A stretch of DNA of 33,243 bases from assembly GCA_019634125.1 (NCBI GenBank), contig JAHQVX010000139.1:1-33243 (forward strand). The letters are read 5' to 3'. The DNA is from Saprospiraceae bacterium. GTDB taxonomy: Bacteria > Bacteroidota > Bacteroidia > Chitinophagales > JAHQVX01. The notes beneath the pieces were generated by a model that was not told where the DNA came from, did not search any database, and was given only the letters and a program-made list of their open reading frames with translations. This document shows, piece after piece, positions 1 to 31,664 of this stretch (positions are counted from its first letter, which is position 1; every line of letters starts with the position of its first letter). Position numbers and translations under genes: made by a program.

Positions 1-276
1 GTCGATAAAAACAAGGACGTTTGCTTCCATATCTGGAATAAGAAACTCTTCAGGATTTAAGCTTAAGCTACCTGCTTTAGCTACTTTGAAGGGGTGTTGC
101 TTAAGATCGTCTAAGTTGATATAGCGATACTCTTCGTGTTTCTTACCTGGTAGGCCAGTTCGTTTGAATTGTTCAAAAGCGGCTTGCCGCTTTTGATGAA
201 AACTACTGCCTTTACTTCCGTTTAAAGAAGCTTCAAACGTATCGAAATTAATTTGTATATCCGAAATACTATTCAT
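1..276 (-). CDS. sufD: SufD, Fe-S cluster assembly protein (N-terminal part, cut by window edge)
   Basis: The first 92 codons of sufD are visible; the gene runs off the left edge. SufD joins SufB and SufC in the SufBC2D scaffold complex that builds Fe-S clusters in the cytosol. The stretch PGKKHEEYRYINL at about residues 43-55 is typical of SufD N-termini. The ATG is 14 nt after the sufC stop, and AAAGGAG lies 8-9 nt ahead of it, an unusually clear Shine-Dalgarno for this kind of genome, which supports this start. It is the third gene of sufB-sufC-sufD. Codons 27-35 contain a perfect 11-bp inverted repeat (173-196). Identification rests on the N-terminal motif plus operon position and is strong. 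Confidence 0.9.
   Translation of the reverse strand, partial: MNSISDIQINFDTFEASLNGSKGSSFHQKRQAAFEQFKRTGLPGKKHEEYRYINLDDLKQHPFKVAKAGSLSLNPEEFLIPDMEANVLVFID
173..196. repeat. Intragenic inverted repeat, 11-bp arms, 2-nt loop (sufD)
   Basis: TCAAAAGCGGC, loop TT, GCCGCTTTTGA, over the HQKRQAAFE codons of sufD. Confidence 0.85.
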
Positions 277-290
277 GCCGATTTTCTCCT

Positions 291-1058
291 TTATGCTACT
301 CCAACTTCTTCCTTAATCCAATCATAACCTTGCTCTTCTAGCTTGAGAGCAAGTTCTTTGCCGCCAGACTTGACAATCCGACCGTCCATTAATACATGAA
401 CATAATCAGGAATAATGTAGTCTAGCAATCTTTGATAATGGGTAATGATTAAAAAGCTTCGGTTATCATCACGTAATGAGTTAACTCCGTTAGCTACGAT
501 TTTTAATGCATCGATATCTAATCCCGAATCGGTTTCGTCCATAATCGCAAATTCAGGATCTAGGACTGCCATTTGGAAAATTTCATTGCGCTTCTTTTCA
601 CCTCCTGAGAAACCTTCATTTACCGAACGGGAAATGAAATTGTCTCCAAGCTCTACAAGTTTTGCTTTCTCCCGAACGAGTTTTAAGAACTCACCAGCCT
701 TAAGTGGCTCGAGACCTTGGTAGGCTCTCTTCTCATTTAAGGCTTCTTTTAGGAAATTCGCATTACTTACTCCCGGGACTTCAATAGGGTATTGGAAAGC
801 AAGAAACATACCTTCATTTGCTCTTTCTTCTGGCTCCCACTCAAAGAGGTCTTGATCTTTGAAAGTTACTTTTCCTTCAGTTACTTCATACCCCTCTTTA
901 CCAGATAATACAGCAGCTAAAGTGCTTTTCCCAGAACCGTTAGGCCCCATGATCGCATGTACTTCACCAGGATTAATATTAAGATCAAGCCCTTTAAGGA
1001 TTTCTACCATTTGTCCTTCTGACTCTACAGATGCATGTAAGTTGTGAATGTTTATCAT
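291..1058 (-). CDS. sufC: SufC, Fe-S assembly ABC-type ATPase
   Basis: This is the cytosolic ABC-type ATPase of the SufBCD complex; its ATP cycle drives conformational change of the SufB-SufD core. At 255 aa it has the family's normal length. Visible motifs are Walker A GPNGSGKST (38-46), Q-loop around FQYP (88-91), the SufC-type signature GFSGGEKKR (149-157), Walker B FAIMDE (170-175), D-loop GLD and H207 in the switch ITHYQR. It starts 13 nt after the sufB stop and is followed by sufD, so the three are surely one transcript. There is no membrane segment, which separates it from importer ATPases. Nothing is broken or missing. Confidence 0.97.
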   Translation of the reverse strand: MINIHNLHASVESEGQMVEILKGLDLNINPGEVHAIMGPNGSGKSTLAAVLSGKEGYEVTEGKVTFKDQDLFEWEPEERANEGMFLAFQYPIEVPGVSNANFLKEALNEKRAYQGLEPLKAGEFLKLVREKAKLVELGDNFISRSVNEGFSGGEKKRNEIFQMAVLDPEFAIMDETDSGLDIDALKIVANGVNSLRDDNRSFLIITHYQRLLDYIIPDYVHVLMDGRIVKSGGKELALKLEEQGYDWIKEEVGVA

Positions 1059-1071
1059 GTTCGTGTTGTTC

Positions 1072-3373: not shown

Positions 3374-4285
3374 ATGAAGAATTTTTACCTATCTCTAATT
3401 TTATTCTGTTTCAGCAATTCGGCTTTTGCCGCAACTTTTGTGACTGTAGAAAGTACTGAAATTACTGCAAATGGGGAGTTCCGGGTTGTTGCCTTAAGTG
3501 ATACTGTTTTTGGTGATGAGGTCATTGGTCAATATCGGTATGATGATGGCATGGGTGGCTTTATTTTTTCAGGCTTTCAAATGTTTACGTTCTTAGAAGA
3601 TGCTGGTGGCGGCAATTTCCGTTTTGAGCTTACATTCACTGTGCCTATGGGTATAAATACTGTGGATGTGGAGGTATGTAATGAAAACGCTGGTTTTGTG
3701 TTTAATTGTACGGGTTTTGTGGAGACGGTGACTGGACTTCCAGTTGAATTGGGTGCTTTTACGGCGGAAGTGAAAAGTGGCGAAGTGGCGTTGAAATGGA
3801 GAACCCTTTCAGAGGAAAATGTATCGCATTTCGATATCCAGCGCAGTACGAACGGTATTGATTTTGAATCTGTTTATGAAGTAAGTGCTGCCGGGAATTC
3901 TACTACGGCTTTAACGTACGAATTCAGCGATGCCATTCTGGTCCCTGGTGAGATTTTTTACCGATTGCATATGGTGGATATGGATGGCTCTTCGGAGTAT
4001 TCTAAGATCATTAGTGTAGATGTAGCTGGGCAAAAGGAGCGTTTGTTGGCATTTAATCCGTTTAATCGAGCTTTGATGGTAGTGAGCGATAAACTTTGTA
4101 CGACTGCTGGTCGGGTTCAAGTTGTAGATCAGAGTGGTCAAGTGGTATTCCAACGCGGCTTTTCTATGGACGATATGTGTGGAAATACTGAGTTATACAT
4201 GAATGAATTGTCTTCGGGGATGTACTATGTTCTCGTGACGACTGAACGAGGTTTGCGCGATAGTTTTTCGATTATGGTTCGGTAG
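3374..4285 (+). CDS. Secreted protein with type IX secretion-like C-terminal sorting domain
   Basis: A 303-aa exported protein of unknown function. The signal peptide runs to about AFA at residue 19. The N-terminal third (about 20-115) is a beta-rich region with no motif I recognise. From about residue 118 (LPVELGAFTAEVKSGEVALKW) follows a fibronectin-III-like region ending with FYRLHMVDMDGSSEYS, then an about 80-residue tail finishing in SSGMYYVLVTTERG, the pattern of type A sorting domains cleaved during type IX secretion. The downstream gene shares the same C-terminal half, so they are tandem paralogues. The nearest promoter-like octamer upstream is TATATTTA, one mismatch from consensus. 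A strong terminator follows the stop, so it is probably monocistronic. Confidence 0.85.
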   Translation: MKNFYLSLILFCFSNSAFAATFVTVESTEITANGEFRVVALSDTVFGDEVIGQYRYDDGMGGFIFSGFQMFTFLEDAGGGNFRFELTFTVPMGINTVDVEVCNENAGFVFNCTGFVETVTGLPVELGAFTAEVKSGEVALKWRTLSEENVSHFDIQRSTNGIDFESVYEVSAAGNSTTALTYEFSDAILVPGEIFYRLHMVDMDGSSEYSKIISVDVAGQKERLLAFNPFNRALMVVSDKLCTTAGRVQVVDQSGQVVFQRGFSMDDMCGNTELYMNELSSGMYYVLVTTERGLRDSFSIMVR

Positions 4286-4306: not shown

Positions 4307-4335
4307 AAAACCACCCCGGACGGGGTGGTTTTTTT
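4307..4335 (+). terminator. Rho-independent terminator
   Basis: AAAACCACCCCG, loop GA, CGGGGTGGTTTT, then more T. The perfect 12-bp stem and T-run lie 22 nt after the upstream stop. The arms AAACCACCCC/GGGGTGGTTT recur exactly in the rpoD terminator at 13267-13289. Confidence 0.9.
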
Positions 4336-4377: not shown

Positions 4378-5838
4378 ATGTTGAAGCCACTTTTTTTCGG
4401 TTTATGTTTCTTTTGGGCAGCTTTCGCTGCCGCCCAGGAGCCATTTATTCGTACCGAATTTGGATTGGGGCAGTATGGATATTTAGAACTCGACGCGCGC
4501 ACCTTTGCCCGACTAGATCGAAATACATTCACCAATATCGACTATTTAAGAGCTCGCTACTATGTAGATGATGGCAACGCCATTGATATGCCCACAAATT
4601 GGGTCTACAACACCCCATTTGATTGGCAATGTAGCGGGGGAATGGATCAGTTTCGAGATAGTCCAGACTTTAATCCGCTCAACTTTGGTGCCGAGTGGGA
4701 AGCGGGTGCCGATGTAGATGTTTCGGTTTATGCCAACTACTGCGGTGGTACTCAGAGCTATACCGACCCTCAAGTAGATATTGGCTTTAATCAACGGCAT
4801 TATGAAGTAGTAGATGTAGATGCAGCTGCACACATCTCAGATCAATTAGGCATTGAAGATGGAAATGGAGATTGTACTTCGGCATTAGTAGCCTCCTTTA
4901 CTATTGATGTGGGGGCTAAAACCGATTTGTCGATAGAACGATTATTTGTCGAGAATGTGGGCACTGCCCAAGAAGTCACCAATATACCCAATGCAGCGTT
5001 TACCGTCTTTTACGAACCTGTAACCGGTTCAGAATCATTTGATGGTACTGAAAATATAGCTGCATTTATGTTGTTTGGTGATTGGGGCGGAAACCCCACA
5101 AACAATAATATTTACGGAGCAGAAGGGTTGAGTATACCACTACTAACCCAAACCCGGATATATATCGCAGCTTGCGATCTAGAAACAGGGTCTAATGGCT
5201 TATCCATTGAACTCAATATAATTAACGACGGGATTTCTCTTGGCCCAGCCAATGATACCAGTTTCGATCTGTTACGAATTGATGAGACGAGCATTTCCCG
5301 ACAAGCATTGATATTGCCCGTTGAGCTTTCTGGTTTTTTTGGTGAAGCTACACCCAATGGTATTCAATTAAATTGGAAGACAAGCAATGAAGAAGGATTT
5401 TCTCATTTTGAAATCGAACGTAGCTTGGATGATACCACGTTCCAATCTCTAGGGAGAGTGACTGCGAATGGAGCAGGGTCTTATGCTTATCTGGATGCAT
5501 TTAGTCCTAAGGTAGAGACGTTGTATTATCGATTAAAAATGGTCGATAAAGATGGGCGTTATTGGTATTCAGATATTCTACGCCTGAAACCTCTATTCAC
5601 CGAAGAAATCACTATGTTTTTTGATCCTGCCCAAGGCGGAATTGTAGTGCAGGGCTTAAAGCAGCAAAAGGGTGATGTAGCAGTTTTTATTTACTCAATC
5701 AGCGGCACATTAGTGGCAGAAAGACAAGGACAGTTGAGCCAGCCTGTTGTAAATACAAGTGCCATCAGTGCTGGGATGTATATCGTAGTACTATTAATTG
5801 ACGAGAAAAGGGTAGTGAATAAAGTTGTCGTTCCCTAA
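4378..5838 (+). CDS. Secreted protein with type IX secretion-like C-terminal sorting domain (paralogue of preceding gene)
   Basis: A 486-aa exported protein; the signal peptide ends near FAAAQ at about residue 20. Residues about 20-310 form a beta-rich, aromatic, aspartate-rich region (NWVYNTPFDWQCSGG, a few cysteines) that I do not recognise. From about residue 315, LPVELSGFFGEATPNGIQLNW to YYRLKMVDKDGRYWYSD matches the fibronectin-III-like region of the preceding gene, followed by a sorting tail ending SAGMYIVVLLIDEKRVV. It is therefore likely secreted or surface-anchored through the type IX system, for which no machinery gene is in this window. Its stop is one base from the stop of the convergent Nudix-type gene, with no terminator hairpin between. 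A loose promoter box (TATTTTG, 4354-4360) precedes the start. Confidence 0.85.
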   Translation: MLKPLFFGLCFFWAAFAAAQEPFIRTEFGLGQYGYLELDARTFARLDRNTFTNIDYLRARYYVDDGNAIDMPTNWVYNTPFDWQCSGGMDQFRDSPDFNPLNFGAEWEAGADVDVSVYANYCGGTQSYTDPQVDIGFNQRHYEVVDVDAAAHISDQLGIEDGNGDCTSALVASFTIDVGAKTDLSIERLFVENVGTAQEVTNIPNAAFTVFYEPVTGSESFDGTENIAAFMLFGDWGGNPTNNNIYGAEGLSIPLLTQTRIYIAACDLETGSNGLSIELNIINDGISLGPANDTSFDLLRIDETSISRQALILPVELSGFFGEATPNGIQLNWKTSNEEGFSHFEIERSLDDTTFQSLGRVTANGAGSYAYLDAFSPKVETLYYRLKMVDKDGRYWYSDILRLKPLFTEEITMFFDPAQGGIVVQGLKQQKGDVAVFIYSISGTLVAERQGQLSQPVVNTSAISAGMYIVVLLIDEKRVVNKVVVP

Positions 5839-10165: not shown

Positions 10166-10576
10166 TTAGCAACAAGCCACCTTGCTGGCTTGTTGTTTTT
10201 TCTTACGATTTAAATAGATGGAATAGGCCAAAAGTAGGCCGCCAATCGTCGCTAGAATAGCTTCCGCAATATGGTGATGGGTGACATGGCCCGAAATAAT
10301 GAAGCTAAAGCCCAAGAGCATGGTTGCTAAGGGCGCATATTTTTTGTGGTGCTTCATAAATCCAATGATATTGATGGCTCCTGTAATCAGGAAGGACAGT
10401 GCCAACAAAATGATTTCAAAGGCTGGATTGGCAAATACGGTTGAACTCATCACAGGTAGTAATGCGATAAATACAGGTGTGAGTATACAATGTACGACAC
10501 ATACAAAAGACAACCCTAAACCGATTCGCTCGGATAAAGAGTGTGCGTTGAACTGTTTGAACCACTTTTGCAACAT
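10166..10576 (-). CDS. MerC-domain membrane protein
   Basis: A 136-aa protein with four predicted membrane helices and the MerC-type motif CVVHCILTP in the first helix region; it ends in a basic, cysteine-tipped tail (KKKQQASKVACC). MerC proteins carry thiol-reactive metals across the inner membrane, but many chromosomal homologues in this phylum sit beside Fur-family genes and their metal is not known. The ATG at 10576 (MLQKWFK) lies exactly at the centre of a 25-nt palindrome, and the minus-7 box TACTTTTG (10582-10589) is inside one palindrome arm, so the mRNA should be leaderless and repressible by whatever binds there. A TTG start 18 nt upstream is possible but unlikely. The stop region contains an inverted repeat (10170-10195). 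Confidence 0.82.
   Translation of the reverse strand: MLQKWFKQFNAHSLSERIGLGLSFVCVVHCILTPVFIALLPVMSSTVFANPAFEIILLALSFLITGAINIIGFMKHHKKYAPLATMLLGFSFIISGHVTHHHIAEAILATIGGLLLAYSIYLNRKKKQQASKVACC
10170..10195. repeat. Inverted repeat at the 3' end of the merC-like gene, 10-bp arms, 6-nt loop
   Basis: CAACAAGCCA, loop CCTTGC, TGGCTTGTTG, covering the last codons. Read on the plus strand it is followed by TTTTTTCTT and so resembles a terminator antisense to the gene; on the sense strand no T-run follows. Confidence 0.55.
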
Positions 10577-10588
10577 TGTTGCAAAAGT
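10564..10588. promoter_or_regulatory. 25-nt perfect palindrome, candidate Fur-family operator over the merC start codon
   Basis: ACTTTTGCAACA, centre T, TGTTGCAAAAGT. The minus-7 box TACTTTTG (10582-10589, minus strand) and ATG (10574-10576) of the MerC-like gene are within it or at its edge, and the Fur-family gene on the other strand starts downstream. The AT-rich, odd-centred dyad is Fur-box-like in size. Binding by the neighbouring regulator is inferred. Confidence 0.65.
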
Positions 10589-10613
10589 AAGCAAAAAAAT
10601 TCTTAGCTTCCTT

Positions 10614-10688: not shown

Positions 10689-11042
10689 ATGGACGTCTTA
10701 AATGCGTTTTTAAGTAAGGAAAATGCGCTATCGCATCATGCGGTAGAGCAGGCGTTGTCATCGAATATGGATCGAGTTACGCTTTATCGTACGTTAAACA
10801 GTTTTATCGAGAAAGGCATATTACATAAAGTGACAGACAATTCGGGCATTTCCCATTTTGCCTTATGTCATTCTTGTGATCATGAGCACCATTTCGATGA
10901 GCATGTGCATTTCAAGTGTACATCTTGTGAGTCGATGGTGTGTATTGATACGGCTATTTTGGAAGCGCCAGCGCTTCCAAAAGGTTACGCGACGCAGTCT
11001 ATGAAAGTAGTCTTAGAAGGAACTTGTCCGAAATGCGTTTAA
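10689..11042 (+). CDS. Fur-family metal-responsive repressor (true start probably upstream of this ATG)
   Basis: A Fur-superfamily regulator: winged helix with RVTLYRTLNSFIEKGILHKV, histidine-rich metal region CDHEHHFDEHVHFKC, and two CxxC pairs (CTSC and the C-terminal CPKC) for structural zinc. From this ATG it is 117 aa, but the 18 in-frame codons just upstream (10635-10688) encode IKPQEILKAHGLRSTPNR, the conserved first helix of the family, and no ATG, GTG or TTG precedes them before a TGA at 10620. Either a rare start (ATC/ATT) is used or the nine-A run at 10622-10630 hides a length error; with one A fewer, TTG at 10619 would be in frame. Metal specificity (iron, zinc, peroxide) cannot be told. 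It is divergent from the MerC-like gene across a palindrome and convergent with the GNAT gene, overlapping by TTAA. Confidence 0.88.
   Translation: MDVLNAFLSKENALSHHAVEQALSSNMDRVTLYRTLNSFIEKGILHKVTDNSGISHFALCHSCDHEHHFDEHVHFKCTSCESMVCIDTAILEAPALPKGYATQSMKVVLEGTCPKCV
10957..10982. repeat. Intragenic perfect inverted repeat, 12-bp arms, 2-nt loop (fur-like gene)
   Basis: TTTTGGAAGCGC, loop CA, GCGCTTCCAAAA, 60 nt before the stop of the Fur-family gene; it encodes ILEAPALPK, normal for the family. It is the longest short-loop arm pair inside a gene in this window. Confidence 0.85.
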
Positions 11043-11524
11043 AGGGACTTGAGCATTTGCACATCACATGCACTATGGCCGGTATTCCCTAAAGGGCCAT
11101 TAATAATTTCAAAACCGAATTTTGTGTAAAGTGCCTGAGCAGCATGCATGTGTGCAAAGGTTTCGATGTAGCATTGTTTGTAGCCTTTGCCTTTGGCAAA
11201 GGCTAAGCTGGCTTCCACAATTTTATAACCCAACCCATTTCCGCGGTGTGCTTTTGAAATGTACATATTTTGAAACTCACAGATATCAGAATCAGCCCCT
11301 TTTAGTGGAGCAATGCCCCCACCGCCAACAATTTGGCCTTTATACTCAATAACTAAATACGTTTTGTTCTCCCCAGTATAAAACTCCGTCATATTCGATA
11401 ACGAAGGGTCATTGTAGGCAGTGCCTGGCCGGTCACCGCCATATTCCTTCAGAGTGGTTTTAATTACTTGTTCTAAAGCCGCATTGTCTTCCCAGCGAAT
11501 TTTGCGTATGGAATAGGTATTCAT
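11039..11524 (-). CDS. GNAT-family N-acetyltransferase
   Basis: A 161-aa acetyl-CoA-dependent acetyltransferase. The core acetyl-CoA loop is visible in QNMYISKAHRGNGLG (motif A, R/Q-x-x-G-x-G/A type, here RGNGLG), followed by AFAKGKGYKQCYIET and the C-terminal AAQALYTKFGFEII. The substrate is unknown. Its ATG overlaps the ffh stop as TAATG, so it is translated downstream of ffh; its stop overlaps the convergent Fur-family stop in TTAA (11039-11042). It contains a perfect 11-bp inverted repeat (11181-11205). Confidence 0.9.
   Translation of the reverse strand: MNTYSIRKIRWEDNAALEQVIKTTLKEYGGDRPGTAYNDPSLSNMTEFYTGENKTYLVIEYKGQIVGGGGIAPLKGADSDICEFQNMYISKAHRGNGLGYKIVEASLAFAKGKGYKQCYIETFAHMHAAQALYTKFGFEIINGPLGNTGHSACDVQMLKSL
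11181..11205. repeat. Intragenic perfect inverted repeat, 11-bp arms, TTT loop (GNAT gene)
   Basis: TAGCCTTTGCC, loop TTT, GGCAAAGGCTA, covering the codons for LAFAKGKGY. Confidence 0.85.
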
Positions 11525-12898: not shown

Positions 12899-13246
12899 TT
12901 ATTTTTTGCCTTTCCTTGGGTTCGGTTGTAAAGCCATTACAAATTGGTAGGCTTCTTCTAATGTTTGATCTAGGAATTCTAGGTTGTCGAATAAGTGTTC
13001 TGGGATGAGCACATAGCCTCTCATTGTGGCGCCATAGGATTTGAATTCAGTGGTATTGTGTTTGGCTTTGAAGGCTTCTCCGCTTTCTTTTGAGAGTCGG
13101 ATTCCCAGTTCTCCAGCTTTATTTAAAAGCGAAAACATGTGGGTGTTTGCTGCTGTGTAGGGCATAGTCTTACCTAAGCGTTCGAAATGGGGATTTCGAG
13201 CGACGAGTTCATCGTAGAATTTGAGGTTTTTTTCCCATTTGCTCAT
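12899..13246 (-). CDS. Small TfoX/Sxy N-terminal-like protein
   Basis: A 115-aa cytosolic protein. The central pattern (MFSLLNKAGELGIRLSKES, then EFKSYGATMRGYVLIPEHL) resembles the TfoX/YjbR-like small domain seen in many stand-alone bacterial proteins of unknown role; I do not claim competence regulation. The start was placed at 13246 (MSKWEKNL) because an upstream start at 13306 would read through the rpoD terminator hairpin. It lies between rpoD and ffh on the same strand, after that terminator, so it may have its own promoter, though I see no clear box. Confidence 0.6.
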   Translation of the reverse strand: MSKWEKNLKFYDELVARNPHFERLGKTMPYTAANTHMFSLLNKAGELGIRLSKESGEAFKAKHNTTEFKSYGATMRGYVLIPEHLFDNLEFLDQTLEEAYQFVMALQPNPRKGKK

Positions 13247-13261
13247 GCCAACGAAATTAAA

Positions 13262-13290
13262 TAAAAAAACCACCCCGAAGGGGTGGTTTA
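13262..13290 (-). terminator. Rho-independent terminator of rpoD (UUCG-type loop)
   Basis: On the minus strand AAACCACCCC and GGGGTGGTTT close around TTC, making a C-UUCG-G tetraloop, followed by a seven-T run. It lies 24 nt after the rpoD stop. The arms are identical to those of the terminator at 4307-4335. Confidence 0.92.
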
Positions 13291-13313
13291 GTATCTGTCT
13301 AATCACAACCTGC

Positions 13314-15221: not shown

Positions 15222-15989
15222 ATGAAACATATCCTCCAAAATAAAGCCACAGTACTCTTCCTTATCCTAGGTGCCTTTTTTGTTACGAATGCCTTGGTAG
15301 CAGAGATGATCGGTACGAAATTGTTTTCCGTAGAGAAACTATTCGGGGTAGATCCCTTGAATTTTAAGTTGTTTGGCGAAACCGTTTCTTTTACCATGAC
15401 GGCGGGCGTATTGCTTTGGCCAGTGGTCTTTATTATGACCGATATTATTAACGAGTATTTCGGACCGAAAGGTGTTCGTTTTCTATCGTTTTTGGTGATT
15501 GGGTTGATTATCTACGCTTTCATAATGATTTATGCTGCAATTGGTGTTCCTCCGGCAGATTTCTTTGTTACGGCATACCAAGACAAAGGCATTGAGGATA
15601 TGAATGTGGCCTTTAAAGGGGTGTTTGGGCAGGGCTTATGGATTATAGCTGGTTCATTGATTGCGTTCTTGGTGGGACAGATTGTAGATGTAACGGTTTT
15701 TCATAAGATTCGAAAGGTGACTGGAGAGGATAAGCTGTGGCTGCGTGCCACTGGTTCTACCTTGGTTTCTCAGCTAATAGACAGTTTTGTGGTGTTGTTG
15801 GTAGCCTTTTATTTTTCTGGGGTGTACCCGCTGGTATGGGTGTTGGCGGTTGGCCTTGTAAACTTTGTTTACAAGGCAGTCGTTGCCGTTATACTCACCC
15901 CTTTGTTATACATCATCCACAATTGGATTGATCGATATTTAGGGAAGGATTTATCCCAGCAGCTTCAAGAAACTGCTGCCAACAATTGA
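15222..15989 (+). CDS. yhhQ: YhhQ-family queuosine precursor transporter
   Basis: A 255-aa membrane protein of the VUT/YhhQ family, which takes up queuine precursors (preQ0/preQ1) for tRNA modification. Six or so hydrophobic helices are visible; conserved stretches are NALVAEMIGTKLF near the N-terminus, VVFIMTDIINEYFGPKGVR in the middle, and GSTLVSQLIDSFVVLLVAFY plus NFVYKAVVAVILTPLLY toward the end. No queuosine synthesis gene is close by. The 3' end overlaps the convergent L,D-transpeptidase gene by 25 nt. Codons near the end contain a perfect 11-bp inverted repeat (15853-15877). Confidence 0.9.
   Translation: MKHILQNKATVLFLILGAFFVTNALVAEMIGTKLFSVEKLFGVDPLNFKLFGETVSFTMTAGVLLWPVVFIMTDIINEYFGPKGVRFLSFLVIGLIIYAFIMIYAAIGVPPADFFVTAYQDKGIEDMNVAFKGVFGQGLWIIAGSLIAFLVGQIVDVTVFHKIRKVTGEDKLWLRATGSTLVSQLIDSFVVLLVAFYFSGVYPLVWVLAVGLVNFVYKAVVAVILTPLLYIIHNWIDRYLGKDLSQQLQETAANN
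15853..15877. repeat. Intragenic perfect inverted repeat, 11-bp arms, TTT loop (yhhQ)
   Basis: GCCTTGTAAAC, loop TTT, GTTTACAAGGC, within a membrane-helix coding region (GLVNFVYKAV), 112 nt before the stop. Confidence 0.85.
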
Positions 15990-17695
15990 TCTTCAGCTAC
16001 ACTTGACAATGCATCGATCAACTCTTTGTCTTTGCCGTATACATCCTTTCTGACCTGTAGTACGCCCTTTTGGTCCACCCAGGTCGTGTAATAGGTAATG
16101 GTCACTTGCATGCGCTCGGGCACATTGATGATCTTATACTCATCGGTGTCCTTAAACTCTTTGTAAATCGGATTATCCTTTAAAATTAACGCACCTAAAC
16201 GATCGGGCTCCCGAACTCTTACACATCCATGACTTTGCGCTCGATTATCGACGTAGAAGTAGCTCTTTGATGGCGTGTCGTGTAGATACACACTATGCTT
16301 ATTTGGAAACAAGAACTTTATTTTACCCAAAGCATTGCCAGCACCTGGATCTTGTACAATTCGATAAGGAAAGTCTTCCGGTGTATACATCCACCAATCA
16401 ACACTGTCTCTGGGTTGTTCTTCTCGGCCATAAAATACCCGGTAATTGTTCTCTAACAAATAATACGGATTAGCTTGTACATTCGGTAAGATTTCCAGCG
16501 TTGAAATACTTTTTGGAACATTCCATTTTGGATTAATCACTACGGTTTCCATCGTATCCATAAACTCTGGGGTCTCATAGTTTCGAACGTACTTAGGCCG
16601 ATCTTTAGCTGTGAAGTTGTAATAGTTTTTCGGATGTTTCTTTCCAACAACAACTATGATGGTGTCTAGTGCTTTTCCCTTTTCGTAATAGACCAAATTA
16701 TAGTCTGGGATATTCACCAGTATGTAATCAGATTTATTTGTATTTAGTTGCCATCTAAAACGTTCCAACGTAGCCCGAATTTGTTCAGTGCGTTCTTCTG
16801 GTGAGGTATTTAACGCAGCATGGGTGGCCGGACCTATAATGCCATCTGGTTTCAAGCCATGATTGGCTTGAAAGGTTTTTACCTGCTGAACAACTTCTGC
16901 ATCGTATACTATATTGGGTACTGCTTTTCCATCTACAGAATCTATGATGGGTTGCAGTCCAAAACGTTCACGGAGTAACGGAACCATTCTATACTTTTTG
17001 TTGGGCTCCATCTTCTTTACAGTCAAATTAGGAAGGGCTTTCCAATCATCGTGAGATTGGGTGTTCCAGTTGGTGTAATACTCTTGGAGTGCCTTGTATT
17101 TCGGATGTGAAGGGTACGCTTCGTTTAACAAGGTGAGTTTCTCTTTCGAGCTAAAGAACTCGTTATAATAACTACTGTCTGGTAGGATGACAGGCAAATG
17201 GTAGCCGCTTAAGAACGTCGTTTTGGGATTTACCGCACCATAGTTCATGGTTTTGTGGTAGGCTAGAGCGGCCAATAAGGTTTCCTTTTCCAATTTAGCT
17301 AGCAACAAATGACTCGTACTGTCTTTGGATCTAATTTGAAATGTAGAATCGATTTGTTCTTTTAAAAATTGAATTTGCTCCAATCGAGGGGCTAACCGAT
17401 TATAGAAACCATGGTTATGTGCTTCAGTCAGGATTTTCTGAATGGAATCGATGTTTTTGAGGCCATTTTTCGAAGTCAGTAGAAAGGGGTATTCTTCGTT
17501 CTCTATAAGTGTTTTGAGGATGGGGTAGAGCACAGTGTCATCAGCTGGATCAAGCAGGTTGTTGAGTTCTTGACTCAAGCTAAACGTGTTCAAAGGAAAA
17601 GAGGTCGCTCTATGTTTACGAGCGTTCGCTTTTTTGCAGCTGGCTACACCAAGGAGGCATAGTATAAGAAGTGTAAGTAGGCCCCTCTGTTTCAT
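15965..17695 (-). CDS. L,D-transpeptidase, YcbB/LdtD-like lipoprotein with peptidoglycan-binding domain
   Basis: A 576-aa envelope enzyme that likely forms 3-3 crosslinks in peptidoglycan. A lipoprotein signal (LLGVASC) puts it on a membrane. An N-terminal scaffold domain (to about 240) is followed by a PGBD1-type peptidoglycan-binding domain (VKTFQANHGLKPDGIIGPATHAALN) and the YkuD catalytic domain with SHGCVRV holding the catalytic cysteine. I chose the ATG at 17695 (MKQRGLLTL) because it begins the signal peptide; an in-frame start at 17722 is possible. It lies 36 nt after the smaller transpeptidase-type gene, so they may be co-transcribed. Its last 25 nt overlap yhhQ. The peptidoglycan-binding domain codons carry an inverted repeat (16850-16873). 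Confidence 0.9.
   Translation of the reverse strand: MKQRGLLTLLILCLLGVASCKKANARKHRATSFPLNTFSLSQELNNLLDPADDTVLYPILKTLIENEEYPFLLTSKNGLKNIDSIQKILTEAHNHGFYNRLAPRLEQIQFLKEQIDSTFQIRSKDSTSHLLLAKLEKETLLAALAYHKTMNYGAVNPKTTFLSGYHLPVILPDSSYYNEFFSSKEKLTLLNEAYPSHPKYKALQEYYTNWNTQSHDDWKALPNLTVKKMEPNKKYRMVPLLRERFGLQPIIDSVDGKAVPNIVYDAEVVQQVKTFQANHGLKPDGIIGPATHAALNTSPEERTEQIRATLERFRWQLNTNKSDYILVNIPDYNLVYYEKGKALDTIIVVVGKKHPKNYYNFTAKDRPKYVRNYETPEFMDTMETVVINPKWNVPKSISTLEILPNVQANPYYLLENNYRVFYGREEQPRDSVDWWMYTPEDFPYRIVQDPGAGNALGKIKFLFPNKHSVYLHDTPSKSYFYVDNRAQSHGCVRVREPDRLGALILKDNPIYKEFKDTDEYKIINVPERMQVTITYYTTWVDQKGVLQVRKDVYGKDKELIDALSSVAEDQLLAAVS
16850..16873. repeat. Intragenic perfect inverted repeat, 10-bp arms, 4-nt loop (L,D-transpeptidase)
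   Basis: TTTCAAGCCA, loop TGAT, TGGCTTGAAA, across the FQANHGLK codons of the peptidoglycan-binding domain. Confidence 0.8.
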
Positions 17696-17731
17696 ACCCA
17701 AAACAAGAATACGAAACGACAATCAACTTTT

Positions 17732-18527: not shown

Positions 18528-19526
18528 TTAAAGGTTGGATAGAAAAGCAAGGGTGTCCACATTGTCTGCATAGTCTTTGAGCCCTGGCCTTTGGCTACCG
18601 CCAAAGGCTAAATGCTGCATCCCGTCCACCACGCATTGAATATGGTCTCTCTCTGCTTTTATCCATGCATAAGCTTCTTCAACAGATGTATATTTTTGGT
18701 AGTGTAGCGTGGCGATCCGAGCATGGAGGCTTTCCGACTCGGTGACCATCATACATTCATTTACGTAATGTGGAATTTTATTCAGCAACAACAGCGTGAG
18801 GTTGTAATCGAAATTATTCTTGTACTTATTATTCTGTATCACTTCTTTTTGGCCGTCTAAGGCTTCCATAAGTGGCTCGAAGGCATAATCTTCAGGAACA
18901 AAAATCTTGGATACATTTCTGCAACCCAGTCCGAAATAATCCAATACATCTTTGCTTAGCAACTGAAGTTGTTCTGGACTTTCTGTTCCGGTTAAAACCG
19001 CAACTCCGTTGCGGTTTTTTCGGATAATGTTGGGGTACTTACTAAAGTAGTAATCAAAATAACGGGCACTATTATTACTGCCGGTAGCAATCACGGCGTC
19101 AAAATCTTTGAGTCGCTCCGTAAGCACAATGCGTTCCTTTAAGCTCGGTTCCCAAGTAAAAAGTTGCTCAAGAATATGATTAAACAAGACTTCATCCTTC
19201 GACGATAGTCTGATTAAAGCCCGATGGCCCGACACTAAAACAGCAAGCAAATCATGAAAACCCACTAAAGGAATATTACCAGCTAGAATGAGTCCGATCG
19301 TTTTAGTGGAGGAAGCTGGTGGATAACTAGCGGCCCAGGCCGCTAGTTGTTCGCTATTTAAATATTGTTCGGCAATAGCGGTCAATGATTGACGAATATT
19401 TTTTTGCGTAAACCACGGATTTAACCGCTCAGCTTGCTGAGCGGTAGCCAATAATTTTTCACTGTCGGAAACCAAATACTGGCCCAATTGTGTTAATACT
19501 TCTAGAGTGCGGGAATCCTGCATCAT
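18528..19526 (-). CDS. LuxC-like acyl-CoA reductase family protein
   Basis: A 332-aa protein of the LuxC/acyl-CoA reductase family (aldehyde-dehydrogenase fold), which reduces fatty acyl-CoA or acyl esters to aldehydes with NADPH. The catalytic cysteine is C202 in GLGCRNVSK; SSTKTIGLILAGNIPLVGFHD begins the nucleotide-binding part, and VIATGSNNSARYFDYYF is also typical. No luxD, luxE or luciferase genes are near, so bioluminescence is not suggested. The start at 19526 (MMQDSRTLEV; 19523 equally possible) is preferred to a longer frame running into the ferredoxin gene. It is divergent from the ferredoxin gene, sharing a symmetric promoter. It carries four perfect inverted repeats, the densest cluster in the window. 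Confidence 0.85.
   Translation of the reverse strand: MMQDSRTLEVLTQLGQYLVSDSEKLLATAQQAERLNPWFTQKNIRQSLTAIAEQYLNSEQLAAWAASYPPASSTKTIGLILAGNIPLVGFHDLLAVLVSGHRALIRLSSKDEVLFNHILEQLFTWEPSLKERIVLTERLKDFDAVIATGSNNSARYFDYYFSKYPNIIRKNRNGVAVLTGTESPEQLQLLSKDVLDYFGLGCRNVSKIFVPEDYAFEPLMEALDGQKEVIQNNKYKNNFDYNLTLLLLNKIPHYVNECMMVTESESLHARIATLHYQKYTSVEEAYAWIKAERDHIQCVVDGMQHLAFGGSQRPGLKDYADNVDTLAFLSNL
18587..18608. repeat. Intragenic inverted repeat, 9-bp arms, 4-nt loop (acyl-CoA reductase)
   Basis: GCCTTTGGC, loop TACC, GCCAAAGGC, about 60 nt before the stop (LAFGGSQRPG codons). Confidence 0.8.
18994..19018. repeat. Intragenic inverted repeat with T-runs both ways, terminator-like (acyl-CoA reductase)
   Basis: AAAACCGCAAC, loop TCC, GTTGCGGTTTT. 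On the plus strand it continues into six T; on the coding strand the arm also ends in four T. It has the form of an intrinsic terminator inside the gene (KNRNGVAVL codons). Confidence 0.8.
19325..19348. repeat. Intragenic inverted repeat, 11-bp arms, 2-nt loop (acyl-CoA reductase)
   Basis: AACTAGCGGCC, loop CA, GGCCGCTAGTT, across the EQLAAWAAS codons. Confidence 0.85.
19424..19445. repeat. Intragenic inverted repeat, 10-bp arms, 2-nt loop (acyl-CoA reductase)
   Basis: ACCGCTCAGC, loop TT, GCTGAGCGGT, across the TAQQAERLN codons, 78 nt from the previous repeat. Confidence 0.85.
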
Positions 19527-19546
19527 TAATTTTAGGTAAAATGGAC

Positions 19547-19565
19547 TATTTTTGCCGCAAAAATA
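19547..19565. promoter_or_regulatory. Mirror-symmetric divergent promoter: TATTTTTG on both strands
   Basis: TATTTTTGC, centre C, GCAAAAATA: a perfect 19-nt palindrome. Each half is an exact TAnnTTTG box, one pointing to the ferredoxin (ATG 19579) and one to the acyl-CoA reductase (ATG 19526). Two polymerases could not occupy both boxes at once. Confidence 0.6.
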
Positions 19566-19578
19566 AAGAAAGTACGCT

Positions 19579-19926
19579 ATGGCGATAATGATCACTGACG
19601 AATGTATTAACTGTGGAGCTTGCGAACCAGAATGCCCAAACAATGCCATCTATGAAGCTGGCGATCAGTGGGCTATTTCGGATGGAACTACAGTGACTGG
19701 AGAGTATCAACTTGGCGACGGCCAAGTTGTGATGGCCGATGATAAACAAAACGCTGTAGCAGACGACTTCTATTATATCGTAGCCGATAAGTGTACTGAA
19801 TGTGTTGGTTTCCACGAAGAACCGCAATGTGCTGCCGTTTGTCCGGTAGATTGCTGTGTTCCTGATCCAGATCATGTGGAGGATGAAGCCACACTTCTCG
19901 AACGAAAAGATCGATTGCACCTGTAA
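19579..19926 (+). CDS. 2[4Fe-4S] ferredoxin (YfhL-like)
   Basis: A 115-aa cytosolic electron carrier. The first cluster motif is [12 protein letters not shown] (C9, C12, C15, C19); the second is [18 protein letters not shown], with an eight-residue insertion between the second and third cysteines, as in YfhL/Allochromatium-type ferredoxins with low redox potential. The N-terminal [15 protein letters not shown] is diagnostic. It is divergent from the acyl-CoA reductase gene with a shared palindromic promoter. Its redox partner is unknown. It carries a 9-bp inverted repeat (19708-19729). Confidence 0.93.
19708..19729. repeat. Intragenic inverted repeat, 9-bp arms, 4-nt loop (ferredoxin)
   Basis: CAACTTGGC, loop GACG, GCCAAGTTG, across the QLGDGQVV codons. 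Confidence 0.8.
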
Positions 19927-21202: not shown

Positions 21203-21210
21203 TATTTTTG
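21203..21210 (+). promoter_or_regulatory. Minus-7 box TATTTTTG for the miaB operon
   Basis: Exact TAnnTTTG match followed by GC, ending 21 nt before the ATG at 21232. The same TATTTTTGC string starts the ferredoxin and mnmA transcripts. Confidence 0.5.
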
Positions 21211-21231
21211 CAGGCGCTAATTGAAGAAGAA

Positions 21232-22671
21232 ATGAGTGAATTGTACAGTAACGACATTGCATTTGAAACGAAGCAGCAGATGGCAGAACATCTCCAAGGC
21301 AAAGCCTTGGAGCTCGACGATACCGAAAAAAACTACAACAAACACTTTTATATTGAGAGCTACGGCTGTCAAATGAATTTTTCAGATAGTGAGATTGTAG
21401 CCTCCATCCTTAACGGAGCGGGATTTGGCCACACCAAAGACTTTACCCAAGCAGATCTCGTACTCATTAACACCTGTTCTATTCGAGAAAAAGCAGAACA
21501 AACAGTACGGAAACGACTTCAACTCTTCAATGGAGCCAAGAAGACGCGACCGAATATGATGGTAGGCGTTTTGGGATGTATGGCAGAACGATTAAAGAAG
21601 AAGTTTCTTGAAGAAGAAAAAATGGTTGATCTCGTAGTGGGCCCAGATGCATACCGTGATTTGCCGAAACTTGTTGCAGAGGCTGAAGGCGGACAAAAAG
21701 CAGTGAATGTCTTCCTATCCAAAGAAGAAACCTACGCAGATATCAACCCGATTCGACTCAACTCCAATGGTATTACAGCCTTCATTTCCATTATGCGCGG
21801 CTGTGATAATATGTGCTCATTTTGCGTAGTGCCATTCACTCGAGGTCGGGAAAGGAGTCGTTCGCCAGAAACTATTGTCGCTGAGGCACAAGAACTAGCC
21901 AACAAAGGTTATAAAGAAGTGACGTTACTAGGTCAAAATGTAGACTCCTACAAATGGTCAACCGAAGCATCTGAAGAAGTCGTGACTTTCGCCAACCTCT
22001 TAGAATTAGTTGCGCAAGTTAGCCCAGATCTTAGAGTGCGTTTCTCCACTTCCCATCCAAAAGATATTACCGATGATGTTTTACATACCATGGCTAAGTA
22101 TGAGAATATCTGCAACTACATTCACCTACCACTTCAAAGTGGGAATTCACGGATTCTCGAGAAGATGAATCGTACCTATGACCGGGAATGGTACATGCAG
22201 AAAGTTGATCGCATTCGAGAAATTATTCCAGATTGTGGCATCTCTTCAGATATGATCGCCGGTTTTTGCTCCGAAACCGAAGAAGAACACCAAGACACGT
22301 TATCCATGATGGACTATGTGAAGTACGATATGAGTTATATGTTTTTCTACAGCGAACGTCCAGGCACTCTAGCTGCTCGTAAATACGAAGATGATGTACC
22401 CATGGAAACGAAGAAAAGACGTTTGCAAGAAATTATCGACCTTCAGCAAAAGCATAGTGCAGAAAGCAACCAGCACGACATCGGAAAGACATTTAAAGTA
22501 CTTGTAGAGAAAGTGTCTAAAAAATCGGATCAAGAATTGGCCGGACGAAATTCTAGAAATAAAATGATTGTATTCCCACGTGAATCGTATAAAATTGGCC
22601 AGTATGTACATGTAAAAGTACATGATGCTACAAGTGCGACACTCATTGGAAAAGCAGTAAGGCCGGCGTAA
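21232..22671 (+). CDS. miaB: tRNA-2-methylthio-N6-(dimethylallyl)adenosine synthase MiaB
   Basis: A radical-SAM methylthiotransferase that adds the 2-methylthio group to i6A37 of tRNAs. The 479-aa protein has the N-terminal UPF0004 domain with cluster cysteines C46 (ESYGCQMN), C82 (NTCSIREKA) and C116 (GCMAER), the radical-SAM CxxxCxxC at C191, C195 and C198, and a C-terminal TRAM domain. [11 protein letters not shown] favours MiaB over MtaB/RimO. The start at 21232 (MSELYSND) is preferred to an upstream TTG. It heads a tightly packed operon; its TAA overlaps the next ATG as TAATG. Being an Fe-S enzyme, it depends on Suf. Codons 21-27 form an inverted repeat. Confidence 0.95.
21292..21312. 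repeat. Intragenic inverted repeat, 9-bp arms, AAA loop (miaB)
   Basis: CTCCAAGGC, loop AAA, GCCTTGGAG, near the 5' end of miaB (LQGKALE codons). Confidence 0.8.
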
Positions 22672-23924: not shown

Positions 23925-24402
23925 GTGGAGTCTTTTGATTGGTTTTTTTCTTTTGAGTGCCTGTAAATATAGCTTGTCGGGCTTTGATGTAAATGCGGAA
24001 ACGGCTGTTGTAAAGTATTTTCAAAACCAGGCTCCGATTCAAAGTGCGGATTTGAGTCAGGTATTTACGAATAAGTTAGAGCAACGAATTATACGTGAAA
24101 CACCGGTTCGATTGGTGCAGAGTAACGGGGAAATTGAATTCTCTGGAACGATAACGAATTATACGATTCGTCCGTTGGCAGTGGCTGCGGATGACCGAAC
24201 TCAGCAGAGTGAGCTGACGTTGACGGTGCAAGTGGAGTATAAGAATTCGAAGGATGAGGACTTGAACTTCCGGGAATCTTTTCGAGCATCTGAACAATTT
24301 GATGCGAATGCGGATTTGACATCGATAGAAGAAGAGTTGTTAGACAGTATTACCGATCAGTTGGTAGCTGCTATTTTTAACCGTGCATTTGCAAATTGGT
24401 AA
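23908..24402 (+). CDS. lptE: LptE-family LPS-assembly lipoprotein
   Basis: A 164-aa outer-membrane lipoprotein; LLSACKYSLSGF gives the lipobox with the acylated cysteine at about residue 19. The rest (YFQNQAPIQSADLSQVFTNKLEQRI, GTITNYTIRPLAV, SELTLTVQVEY) follows the Bacteroidota LptE pattern, the plug partner of LptD for LPS delivery to the cell surface. It overlaps the upstream gene by 17 nt (8 nt if the second ATG at 23917 is used) and its TAA overlaps the next ATG. lptD is not in the window. Identification is by pattern and conserved order, not by strong motifs. Confidence 0.85.
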   Translation: MTSMAKWSLLIGFFLLSACKYSLSGFDVNAETAVVKYFQNQAPIQSADLSQVFTNKLEQRIIRETPVRLVQSNGEIEFSGTITNYTIRPLAVAADDRTQQSELTLTVQVEYKNSKDEDLNFRESFRASEQFDANADLTSIEEELLDSITDQLVAAIFNRAFANW

Positions 24403-25382
24403 TGAAAGTAGAAGAATTAGCCATAACGTCGTTTGCGGATTTAGAAGCGCTGCCTTTGGCAGCGCTCAAGGAACTCGTACACCAATATCCAACAGCGAGT
24501 ATCCCAGCAATGGTCGCCGCTCGAAAAGCCCACCAAGAGAAAGATCCTGATTTTGAACATCTTCTTACCCATGCTGCCCTTCGCTTACCCTCAAGAAGCG
24601 TCTTGAAAGACTATGTATTAGCCAGTTTTGCTGAGGAAACGGAAGAACAAACAGTTGAGGTTTCAGAGAAGCCAGAAGCACCAGTATTAACAGATCCAAT
24701 CCCAGAGCAGGTACCATTCGAGCAAGAAGCACATCTAGATGGTTCCACGGAAGATGAATCGGAAGGTTCAGACAGAGCGTCTACAAATGCTGAACAGGCC
24801 TTTCAAGAAGAGGCAGTGCCTTCCGAAAATGCTTTAGATAACATGTATGCAGCCCAAGCCTATGCTGCGAATTTAGAAGCCGAGCTGAAAGAAATGCCCG
24901 CCGACTTAATTGAGCAGCAATTAGAATTGAGGAATTCGGCAAAAGGAAATGATGAGTCAACACCTGTTTCTGAAGATATTATCCTAGAAGTGAACCAGTC
25001 GGATGATGTGAAAAGCTTTACCGATTGGCTGTCGGCTTTTACTCAAGAAGAAGCGACAAGCTTAGACGAAACGCTACCTGAAGTCAAAGAAGAAGTGGTG
25101 GAATCACAACAGGAAGTTCAGTCTTCGCCTCGTCCAAGCATTCGGCGGGAAATTAAAGAAGACCAATTGGAGAGCACGAAAATGGAACGAGTGCACGAAA
25201 TGGCCAAGAAAAGTATTTCTAAGGATAAAAGCTTTTATACTGAAACCTTGGCTAAGATTTATTGGGACCAAAAGAAGTGGAAACAAGCCATTGATGTTTA
25301 CGAGGTATTAAGTTTGAAATATCCCGAAAAAAGCACTTACTTTGCAGCCCAAATTGATTTGTTGAAAGAAAATTTGAAGTGA
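24402..25382 (+). CDS. Acidic protein with C-terminal TPR-like repeat
   Basis: A 326-aa protein without signal peptide. The first about 75 residues are helical (SFADLEALPLAALKELVHQYP, then AMVAARKAHQEKDPDFEHLL); residues 80-260 are strongly acidic and low in complexity (many E, Q, S, P); the last about 60 (SFYTETLAKIYWDQKKWKQAIDVYEVLSLKYPEKS) form one TPR-like unit. The layout suggests an adaptor, but no function is known to me. It lies between lptE and secG and overlaps both (TAATG and TGATG), so it is translated with envelope-biogenesis genes. An inverted repeat (24446-24466) sits near the 5' end. Confidence 0.75.
   Translation: MKVEELAITSFADLEALPLAALKELVHQYPTASIPAMVAARKAHQEKDPDFEHLLTHAALRLPSRSVLKDYVLASFAEETEEQTVEVSEKPEAPVLTDPIPEQVPFEQEAHLDGSTEDESEGSDRASTNAEQAFQEEAVPSENALDNMYAAQAYAANLEAELKEMPADLIEQQLELRNSAKGNDESTPVSEDIILEVNQSDDVKSFTDWLSAFTQEEATSLDETLPEVKEEVVESQQEVQSSPRPSIRREIKEDQLESTKMERVHEMAKKSISKDKSFYTETLAKIYWDQKKWKQAIDVYEVLSLKYPEKSTYFAAQIDLLKENLK
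24446..24466. repeat. Intragenic inverted repeat, 9-bp arms, TTT loop (TPR-like gene)
   Basis: AGCGCTGCC, loop TTT, GGCAGCGCT, over the EALPLAALK codons, 44 nt from the start codon. Confidence 0.8.
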
Positions 25383-25917: not shown

Positions 25918-25933
25918 TGGCACTAAATGTGTT
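25918..25933 (+). promoter_or_regulatory. Sigma-54-like promoter upstream of groES
   Basis: TGGCACTAAATGTGTT: the minus-24 element TGGCAC is perfect; the minus-12 element has GT instead of GC at the right spacing (GG-N10-GT). The predicted start would be near 25945, about 42 nt before the groES ATG. No TAnnTTTG box is seen in the 206-nt gap. The gap also holds the secG terminator and a loose CTGTCA/TGACAG dyad (25850-25884). Confidence 0.4.
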
Positions 25934-25986
25934 CTCTCCAGCCTGTACAACACAATTTTAATTTAAACACTAAATACAAAACGAAA

Positions 25987-26265
25987 ATGGCCGAATTAAA
26001 CATTACGCCTTTGGCAGATCGAGTAGTTGTTCAGCCTGCAGAAGCAGAAACTACAACCGCATCTGGAATTATTATTCCAGATACGGCTCAAGAAAAACCT
26101 CAAAAAGGAAGCGTAGTAGCCGTTGGCTCTGGAAAAAAAGATGAACCAATGACCGTTAAAATTGGCGATGCTGTCCTCTATGGAAAATACTCAGGAACAG
26201 AAATCACTATCGACGGAAACGATTACCTAATCATGAGAGAATCTGATATTCTCGCTATCGTTTAA
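25987..26265 (+). CDS. groS: Co-chaperonin GroES
   Basis: The 10-kDa heptameric lid of the GroEL chamber. The 92-aa product is normal: [17 protein letters not shown] at the start, the mobile loop [17 protein letters not shown] (about 18-34), and [14 protein letters not shown] near the end. The ATG at 25987 (MAELNITPL) is right; an in-frame ATG at 25927 would add 20 residues outside the family. A near-consensus sigma-54 promoter precedes it. groL follows after 33 nt. Confidence 0.97.
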
Positions 26266-27953: not shown

Positions 27954-27990
27954 ACCCCATCTCGGCAAAGCCGAGATGGGGTTTTTCTTT
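27954..27990 (+). terminator. Rho-independent terminator of groS-groL
   Basis: ACCCCATCTCGGC, loop AAA, GCCGAGATGGGGT: perfect 13-bp stem followed by a T-rich run. It is the longest stem in the window. Confidence 0.95.
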
Positions 27991-28429: not shown

Positions 28430-28435
28430 GAAAGT

Positions 28436-30306: not shown

Positions 30307-30315
30307 ATTAGTGAC

Positions 30316-31080
30316 ATGAATCGATTACTGTTTTTCTTTCTTATTGGCTTTTCCGCGTTGGTGTTTTCAAATTGCTCCGACGATGGCGGAACCGATATTG
30401 ATAGCTCAAGTACGCCCTTCTTTCCTTTAGAAACCGGCCATTGGGTAGAATATAAATTGGACTCTGTTATTTACGACGATTTCGATAATTCGGTAACAAA
30501 TACGGAGCGTTACCTTAGAATTGAAGTGGGCGAGCAAGTGAATGATGGAGTAGGCGGTACCTTGACTGAGCTCTTCCTTTTTGAAAAGGTTAATCCTACA
30601 GATAATTACAGCTTAGAAAAAGTGTGGTTCGCCAAAGTAGACAATGGGGTTCTAGAAACCGTTGAAGACAACTTGCGCTTTATTAAGCTCGATTTACCCC
30701 CGACTACTGGTAAAAGTTGGGAAGGCAATCAGTTCATTTTTCCAGATAATGGCGACAACCCGAATAATTCGACTGATTTCTATGAAGGTTGGGATTATTT
30801 CTACGAGGAAGTAGGCAGCCCATTCGAAATCAACGGCTTGTCATTTAACAATACGGTATTGGTCAATGAGGTGGATGAGTTTGGCATTGTAACTACGCAC
30901 CGAATTGGCTACACGAGGTATGCTGAGAATGTAGGTGTGGTTCGAAAACACTGGGAAATGGTGATTGAGAACTGTGGTACACCGGGTTGTAGTGAAAAGG
31001 AGTTGCCCGTGATTGACCGTTCTATTGGTCGCAAAGGCTTCTTTGTAGATTGGTACTTGATCGATTATAAGCGCGATTAA
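30316..31080 (+). CDS. Putative surface lipoprotein
   Basis: A 254-aa lipoprotein of unknown function. The signal peptide ends in LVFSNC and the mature protein begins CSDDGGTDID, the same acidic pattern after the lipid cysteine as the gene at 28010, suggesting surface export. The body (FFPLETGHWVEYKLDSVIYDD at the start, ENVGVVRKHWEMVIENCGTPGC near the end) is typical of secreted Bacteroidota proteins that begin with a G-x-W-x-Y motif; no enzyme motif is seen. It starts 9 nt after mnmA and probably shares its transcript. Its stop overlaps convergent coaE in TTAA (31077-31080). Confidence 0.78.
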   Translation: MNRLLFFFLIGFSALVFSNCSDDGGTDIDSSSTPFFPLETGHWVEYKLDSVIYDDFDNSVTNTERYLRIEVGEQVNDGVGGTLTELFLFEKVNPTDNYSLEKVWFAKVDNGVLETVEDNLRFIKLDLPPTTGKSWEGNQFIFPDNGDNPNNSTDFYEGWDYFYEEVGSPFEINGLSFNNTVLVNEVDEFGIVTTHRIGYTRYAENVGVVRKHWEMVIENCGTPGCSEKELPVIDRSIGRKGFFVDWYLIDYKRD

Positions 31081-31664
31081 CGGTTCTGTGCCACGAGTAG
31101 TTGGTGCACTTCTAAGGCTTGCTTGATCAAGGAGTCTTTACCATTATTGTGAATGACAATATCTGCTTGTTCCACTTTTTGTTGTTGAGGCAGTTGCGCA
31201 GCCATTCGCTGGCGAATGGCTGATTCATCGACACTATCTCTCGACATTACTCGGGAAATCCGTAATTCCTCAGGAGCATCTACTACAATAACTGCATCAA
31301 AGGCATTTGCTCGTTTGATTTCATAGATAATTGCCGATTCGAAGAGTACATATGGGGCTGACTGTTCGCCGATCCATCGGGCTTGGTCTCTAAACACGGC
31401 AGGATGAACCAAGCTGTTTAAAAGATCCAGCTTTGCTGGATCTTGAAAGACTTGTTCACTTAAAAACGCTCGATTTAACCGCCCACTCTCATAAGCTTCA
31501 GACCCGAAATGCTGCTGAATAGCTGCTATAAGTTCCGGATCTGTATGCATTAACGCCTTCGCTGCGCGATCGGAAAAGTAGACAGGTATGCCCAGAATTT
31601 GAAAGATGTTGGCCACAGTGGTCTTACCCGTTCCGATTCCACCGGTTATGGCCACCTTAAGCAT
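31077..31664 (-). CDS. coaE: Dephospho-CoA kinase
   Basis: Performs the last step of coenzyme A synthesis, phosphorylating the 3'-OH of dephospho-CoA. The 195-aa product has the P-loop GGIGTGKT (8-15), the FSDRAAKALMH acceptor region, LVHPAVF and the lid with SVDESAIRQRMAAQL. It starts directly after the yajC stop with no gap (31664/31665), as the last gene of nusB-yajC-coaE. Its stop overlaps that of the convergent lipoprotein gene. Two perfect inverted repeats lie inside (31199-31222 and 31422-31444). Confidence 0.95.
   Translation of the reverse strand: MLKVAITGGIGTGKTTVANIFQILGIPVYFSDRAAKALMHTDPELIAAIQQHFGSEAYESGRLNRAFLSEQVFQDPAKLDLLNSLVHPAVFRDQARWIGEQSAPYVLFESAIIYEIKRANAFDAVIVVDAPEELRISRVMSRDSVDESAIRQRMAAQLPQQQKVEQADIVIHNNGKDSLIKQALEVHQLLVAQNR
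31199..31222. repeat. Intragenic inverted repeat, 11-bp arms, 2-nt loop (coaE)
   Basis: CAGCCATTCGC, loop TG, GCGAATGGCTG, over the SAIRQRMAA codons, 122 nt from the stop. Confidence 0.85.
31422..31444. repeat. Intragenic inverted repeat, 10-bp arms, TTT loop (coaE)
   Basis: AAGATCCAGC, loop TTT, GCTGGATCTT, over the QDPAKLDLL codons. Confidence 0.85.

Follow-up and report, generated by a model that had tools for sequence, protein, structure and literature searches.

The window analysed here, a stretch of 33,243 nucleotides, is one contig of a 2.2-Mb, 146-contig, 83%-complete assembly, and its genes carry perfect inverted repeats with short loops. The first stem (173-196; arm 11, loop 2, TT) lies in an ORF on the minus strand (1-276). 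Just inside the start of a MerC-family (merC) ORF (10166-10594, minus strand) there is a stem at 10564-10588 with an arm of 12 and a 1-nt loop, equivalent to arm 11 and loop 3. It is followed by stems in a Fur-family ORF (10689-11042, plus strand; stem 10957-10982, arm 12, loop 2, CA), in a GNAT acetyltransferase gene (11039-11524, minus strand; stem 11181-11205, arm 11, loop 3, TTT) and in a further ORF (12899-13306, minus strand; stem 13267-13289, arm 10, loop 3, GAA). The Vut_1 transporter gene (15222-15989, plus strand) encloses a stem at 15853-15877 (arm 11, loop 3, TTT), and the YkuD L,D-transpeptidase gene (15965-17722, minus strand) one at 16850-16873 (arm 10, loop 4, TGAT). A LuxC-like acyl-CoA reductase gene (18528-19649, minus strand) encodes four of them, namely 18587-18608 (arm 9, loop 4), 18994-19018 (arm 11, loop 3, GGA on the coding strand), 19325-19348 (arm 11, loop 2) and 19424-19445 (arm 10, loop 2). 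Downstream we found stems with arms of 9 in a ferredoxin ORF (19579-19926, plus strand; stem 19708-19729, loop 4), a MiaB-type radical-SAM gene (21208-22671, plus strand; stem 21292-21312, loop 3, AAA), an ORF at 24396-25382 (plus strand; stem 24446-24466, loop 3, TTT) and an ORF at 25927-26265 (plus strand; stem 26061-26082, loop 4) upstream of groL. The CoaE gene (31077-31664, minus strand) holds two, at 31199-31222 (arm 11, loop 2, TG) and 31422-31444 (arm 10, loop 3, TTT). The assignments of the Fur-family, GNAT, Vut_1, YkuD, LuxC-like, ferredoxin, MiaB-type and CoaE host genes are backed by Pfam. A sequence-only reading of the window had listed fourteen perfect inverted repeats within coding sequences; all 14 are indeed perfect, at the coordinates listed, and all 14 lie in ORFs. 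The stems at 10564-10588, 13267-13289 and 26061-26082 were absent from that list.

Two further perfect stems, likewise absent from the list, are terminator-like and were counted apart. One (27954-27982; arm 13, loop 3, AAA) lies directly after groL and the other (4307-4332; arm 12, loop 2) between the genes at 3374-4285 and 4378-5838. Intergenic stems of the genome have arms of 12-16, longer than those in coding DNA, with AAA/TTT loops in 112 of 204 cases and flanks that are A-rich on the 5′ side and T-rich on the 3′ side. They favour convergent gene ends, as at 27954-27982, and are two-way terminators that are likewise perfect and short-looped. Stems within genes have no U-run and neutral flanks, and this rules them out as intrinsic terminators.

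With a minimum arm of 9 bp and a loop of 2-4 nt, the called genes of the window contain 15 stems, as counted with a simple gene caller that overlooked the Fur and ferredoxin ORFs, versus 0.47 expected and a maximum of 3 in 200 shuffles among synonymous codons, which keep protein and codon usage. With the same control applied to 1.64 Mb of the 2.2-Mb assembly, of which 1.50 Mb is coding DNA, there were 588 such stems in coding sequence versus about 21.5 in the shuffles, a roughly 27-fold excess, and 185 with arms of at least 11 bp versus fewer than 2. This genome-wide comparison with codon-preserving shuffles had been named in the sequence-only reading as its refuting test, and the excess stands by a wide margin. 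The excess of inverted repeats is real and genome-wide.

The excess is confined to a narrow range of sizes. For loops of three bases, arms of 9, 10, 11 and 12 bp occurred 144, 139, 67 and 30 times versus 6.7, 3.2, 0.3 and 0 expected. Across the coding DNA of the genome the excess sets in at an arm of about 8 bp, ends at about 12-13 bp and is seen only with loops of 2-4 nt; at arm lengths of 4-6 bp there is no clear excess, and with loops of 5 nt or more there is none. The stems are thus restricted in size to about one helical turn. Total stem lengths are 20-28 nt and not multiples of three, and the arms have no sequence in common, as had been noted for the window and as holds genome-wide. Stems are also all-or-none, with perfect arms and few intermediates: perfect 10-bp stems with a 3-nt loop numbered 247 versus 2.4 expected, windows of this size with two mismatches 512 versus 436, and those with three mismatches showed no excess and fell slightly under expectation. 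Among coding stems with a single mismatch, A.G/C.T and C.C/G.G were in excess and transition-type mismatches were few, unlike what simple mutational decay of perfect stems would leave. Pairing beyond the ends of the genome's stems is random, by which decayed longer palindromes were ruled out. We found no regularity in stem spacing, the intervals being approximately exponential, and no sharp peak in position along genes.

Other Bacteroidota, about 20 families of the same order among them, showed no such excess in approximately 1.7 Mb of coding DNA. The comparison sets comprised about 0.44 Mb from other families of the order and 1.5 Mb of named Bacteroidota loci, and in these, arms of 9, 10 and 11 bp with a 3-nt loop occurred 9, 2 and 0 times versus 9.8, 2.0 and 0.8 expected, which is the chance level. 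Among the Bacteroidota compared, all from other families, the hairpin excess is thus confined to this lineage. Three contigs of the genome carry no stems; foreign DNA was rejected as the cause, since they hold ordinary housekeeping genes, among others those for EF-Ts, PolA, a class-I Glu/Gln-tRNA synthetase and TatD.

The composition of the stems points to DNA. The sequence-only reading had described a preference for TTT, AAA, TT, CA and TG loops; genome-wide the favourites are GAA/TTC, AAA/TTT, GGA/TCC and AA/TT. When read on one of the two strands, 229 of the 383 three-base loops belong to the GNA type; approximately 65-71% of stems with loops of 2-3 nt are closed by C-G, and the inner stem pairs are rich in G+C. 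GNA loops with a C-G closing pair are unusually stable in single-stranded DNA, and together with the G+C-rich inner pairs these features are as expected for folding of single-stranded DNA. G.U pairs on the coding strand are not tolerated beyond chance (14 one-mismatch stems with G.U versus 15.2 expected), other mismatches showing a mild excess. TTC, TCC and TTT loops are as strongly enriched, in codon phases, as GAA, GGA and AAA. Loops of three bases are preferred, and tetraloops of the GNRA or UUCG type are not favoured among the stems. The signal is therefore strand-symmetric, strictly Watson-Crick and ends abruptly with the stem, which places it at the level of DNA and not of RNA.

Protein and codon usage leave a clear imprint on where stems occur. 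The codon phase of the stem centres had been said merely to vary; in the coding DNA of the genome it is biased, with 204:48:131 for 3-nt loops. This is the pattern expected if the protein limits which stems can survive, the least common phase being that in which two wobble positions are paired together and the remaining pairs are left without a free position. The absence of stems from core genes, noted for the window, proved to be real and general, yet one stem lies in the ORF at 25927-26265 just upstream of groL. Stem density drops 25-fold as codon usage becomes more ribosomal-protein-like, the lowest and highest classes having 1.04 and 0.04 stems per kb; the expectation from shuffles stays level across these classes, and GC3 had no significant effect on density when fitted alongside codon usage. 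Sites at which the protein permits a stem with a 3-nt loop exceed controls by approximately the number of realised stems. This suggests that amino-acid changes took part, and a nonsynonymous contribution is likely, its size being imprecise because control genomes scatter by several per cent in these counts. Conservation at hairpin residues is close to that in the remainder of the gene, and the two arms differ in it no more than in controls. Divergent promoter spacers contain 46 stems per 100 kb, a density similar to that of coding DNA.

Overlapping contig ends of the assembly show differences of up to about 11%, in the manner of strain variants. Near-identical pairs considered as paralogues proved to be such overlapping ends or repeat arrays. 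In one pair, L169 (G000:C68) at about 11014-11046 and the matching end of L200 (G000:C99), the arms of a stem are identical and the loop is inverted, GAA on one contig and TTC on the other. The inversion accounts for three of 11 differences in 290 bp and lies in a non-coding stretch 3′ of a gene. A corresponding case at the protein level is the LuxC-like stem at 18994-19018, whose loop codon is GGA (Gly), whereas the residue is Ser in 79 of 84 homologs; Gly is what inverting TCC would yield. Over 37 sites, loop-codon inversion was seen at 5.2% versus 2.3% expected, and since this signal stems largely from one site it is only anecdotal. The evidence for loop inversion thus comprises one strain pair and one protein-level case, strain-variant stretches being few.

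We consider it probable that the hairpins have accumulated through template switching at quasi-palindromes during replication, a process that would be far stronger here than in relatives. Very active template switching, in the form of quasipalindrome correction, was one of two readings offered from the sequence alone, and it is the better supported of them. Speaking for it are the excess over codon shuffles, the strand-symmetric Watson-Crick pairing, the all-or-none arms, the loop and closing-pair composition, the inverted loops, the codon-usage gradient, the irregular spacing of stems with unrelated arms, the surplus of protein-permitted sites and the resemblance to published spacer inversions in yeast. 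According to this explanation, synthesis would stall and the nascent 3′ end would fold back, pairing through a short G+C-rich seed around a stable DNA loop of 2-4 nt. The folded end would then copy the opposite arm and go back to its own template. An intramolecular switch would make a near-palindrome of about 9-12 bp perfect, and an intermolecular (interstrand) switch would invert the loop and keep the arms. Repeated switching would keep arms perfect and flip loops, and would thus leave stems that are perfect or absent, and strand-symmetric. Selection may remove those switches that harm the protein or the codon choice in highly expressed genes, which would account for the biased codon phase and the scarcity of stems in core genes. 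The data themselves show the excess with its size limits, the symmetry at the DNA level, the restriction to this lineage, the codon-usage gradient and a single loop inversion between strain variants; the fold-back copying step and the reason for its high activity here are what we infer.

Several observations count against template switching. A functional threshold could also underlie the abrupt onset at about 8-9 bp. Hairpin residues are not clearly less conserved and the two arms are alike in this respect. Freedom from protein constraint should raise the density in spacers, so that a spacer density close to the coding density would call for extra assumptions in a purely mutational account. 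Loop orientation relative to the contig or to GC skew showed no replication-strand bias, contigs being short and unordered, and a bias of this kind is reported in E. coli reporters.

Some of these points would fit a function at the level of DNA, in which many hairpin or cruciform sites of any sequence, with 9-12 bp stems and 2-4 nt loops, would serve a structure-specific protein or the handling of single-stranded DNA, the codons being selected to form them. The sharp lower and upper size limits, the rarity of imperfect stems, the conservation of hairpin residues and the similar densities in coding DNA and divergent spacers all agree with it. Such a function would not predict the loop inversion in the strain pair, however, and the 25-fold drop with codon-usage class would be odd for a chromosomal role; the stems also lack a pattern in position, spacing or orientation, and such a system is not known. 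Overall we regard this function as unlikely. A broader possibility, to be held only tentatively, is that a dedicated or altered DNA-level system builds and maintains GNA-type-loop hairpins of about one helical turn across the chromosome, be it as a functional structural code or because a changed set of replication or repair enzymes, for example RecJ loss on top of missing ExoVII and SbcCD, has made the organism a natural template-switch hypermutator. If the latter is true, the genome records the physical rules of template switching.

In the 83%-complete assembly no RecJ was matched by TIGR00644 or PF17768, and 19 of 20 relatives searched have one; XseA (ExoVII) and a full-length SbcD were likewise without a match in it. 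The assembly does contain RecG, RNase HII, PolA and a MutS that is partial at a contig end. A missing recJ as the cause of strong template switching is only a lead, as are the other absences, because the assembly is incomplete and many hairpin-free relatives also lack XseA and SbcD. Among the repair genes searched in this 83%-complete assembly, no lineage-unique defect is proven.

The second reading offered from the sequence alone, that the hairpins set transcript decay, translation speed or transcription pausing, found no support and appears very improbable. Stems within genes would form in RNA, and their density does depend on a codon-usage class that tracks expression, but the coding strand has no surplus of G.U pairs, complementary loops are equally enriched, loops of three bases take the place of stable RNA tetraloops, and neither a U-run nor a sharp positional preference was seen. 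Excess hairpins within genes need not mean functional RNA.

A dispersed palindromic element of the REP, RPE or MITE-like kind inserted in genes is refuted for the bulk of stems and hardly credible: the genome has a weak repeat family with a CTATGGACTTCAGTCCATAG stem, but the arms of the hairpins lack a common sequence, their total lengths range over 20-28 nt without being multiples of three, alignment gaps are not in excess at hairpins and hairpin residues align to conserved protein positions. The family consists of units of about 100 bp with a CTATGGACTTCAGTCCATAG-like stem (L005 4340-4493, L017 10770-11260, L178 3530-3636, L209 and L215), the copies of which vary in arm and centre. The genome also encodes one full-length Y1 transposase (PF01797; G000:C125:11544-11888) and a weak partial match on C74, an ordinary copy number among relatives. 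Assembly or amplification artefacts in the form of fold-back chimeras can practically be dismissed, since stems lie in open frames over conserved protein sequence, show codon-phase bias and dependence on codon-usage class, and recur with the same arms in separate strain-variant contigs, even though the assembly is fragmented and 83%-complete and one contig end (L162, G000:C61, 9762-9881) forms a perfect palindrome of 120 bp that may be an assembly fold-back.

Work on template switching usually relies on rare reporter events. The approximately 590 standing coding products in this one genome display, if they are such products, which stem lengths, loop sizes, loop sequences and closing pairs are preferred, as well as the way in which selection on protein and codons filters them. 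One bacterial lineage may exceed its relatives more than 10-fold in template-switch pressure, and a difference of this order of magnitude makes the genetic cause searchable.

The template-switch process itself is known. Quasipalindrome correction in yeast (PMC8604942) and in E. coli reporters (PMC7202029, PMC6357072) resembles our case in its short perfect arms (about 9-12 bp), its spacers of 2-5 nt that include the pairs gaa/ttc, tcc/gga and AA/TT, the inversion of loops between intact arms, and coding amino-acid changes. In S. cerevisiae, spacer inversions by template switching occurred only on arms of more than 9 bp, with spacers including gaa/ttc, tcc/gga and AA/TT (PMC8604942). Those studies, however, describe tens of events in 50 yeast strains or rare reporter events, whereas here about 590 coding stems stand in 1.5 Mb, with none in relatives and conversion not directly observed. 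An excess of close inverted repeats in prokaryotes has also been ascribed to template switching (PMC13155455), but it is described as small, concerns arms of 6-9 bp and leaves the coding regions of most genomes normal, unlike the 27-fold overall excess with a hump at arms of 9-12 and loops of 2-4 described here. Some genera, e.g. Azobacteroides and Aliivibrio, show extreme over-representation in coding DNA (PMC4060949), the comparison with our stems being one of abundance. The mitochondrial coding palindromes of Nematomorpha (PMC6649704) are likewise perfect repeats in functional genes, with all-or-none identity, codon-phase bias and restriction to a lineage, for which conversion or template switching is suspected; their authors argued from the all-or-none pattern that conversion keeps arms identical. 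They differ in being mitochondrial and up to 284 bp long, compared with about one helical turn in this bacterium. Maintenance of rRNA hairpins by template switching (PMC8794818) resembles our case in loop inversions, instantaneous stem repair and a preference for loops stable in DNA, but there the RNA is functional, and the present stems give no sign of an RNA function. What is new in comparison with all of these is that stems of sharply limited size have accumulated in coding DNA to an extreme degree and in a lineage-specific manner.
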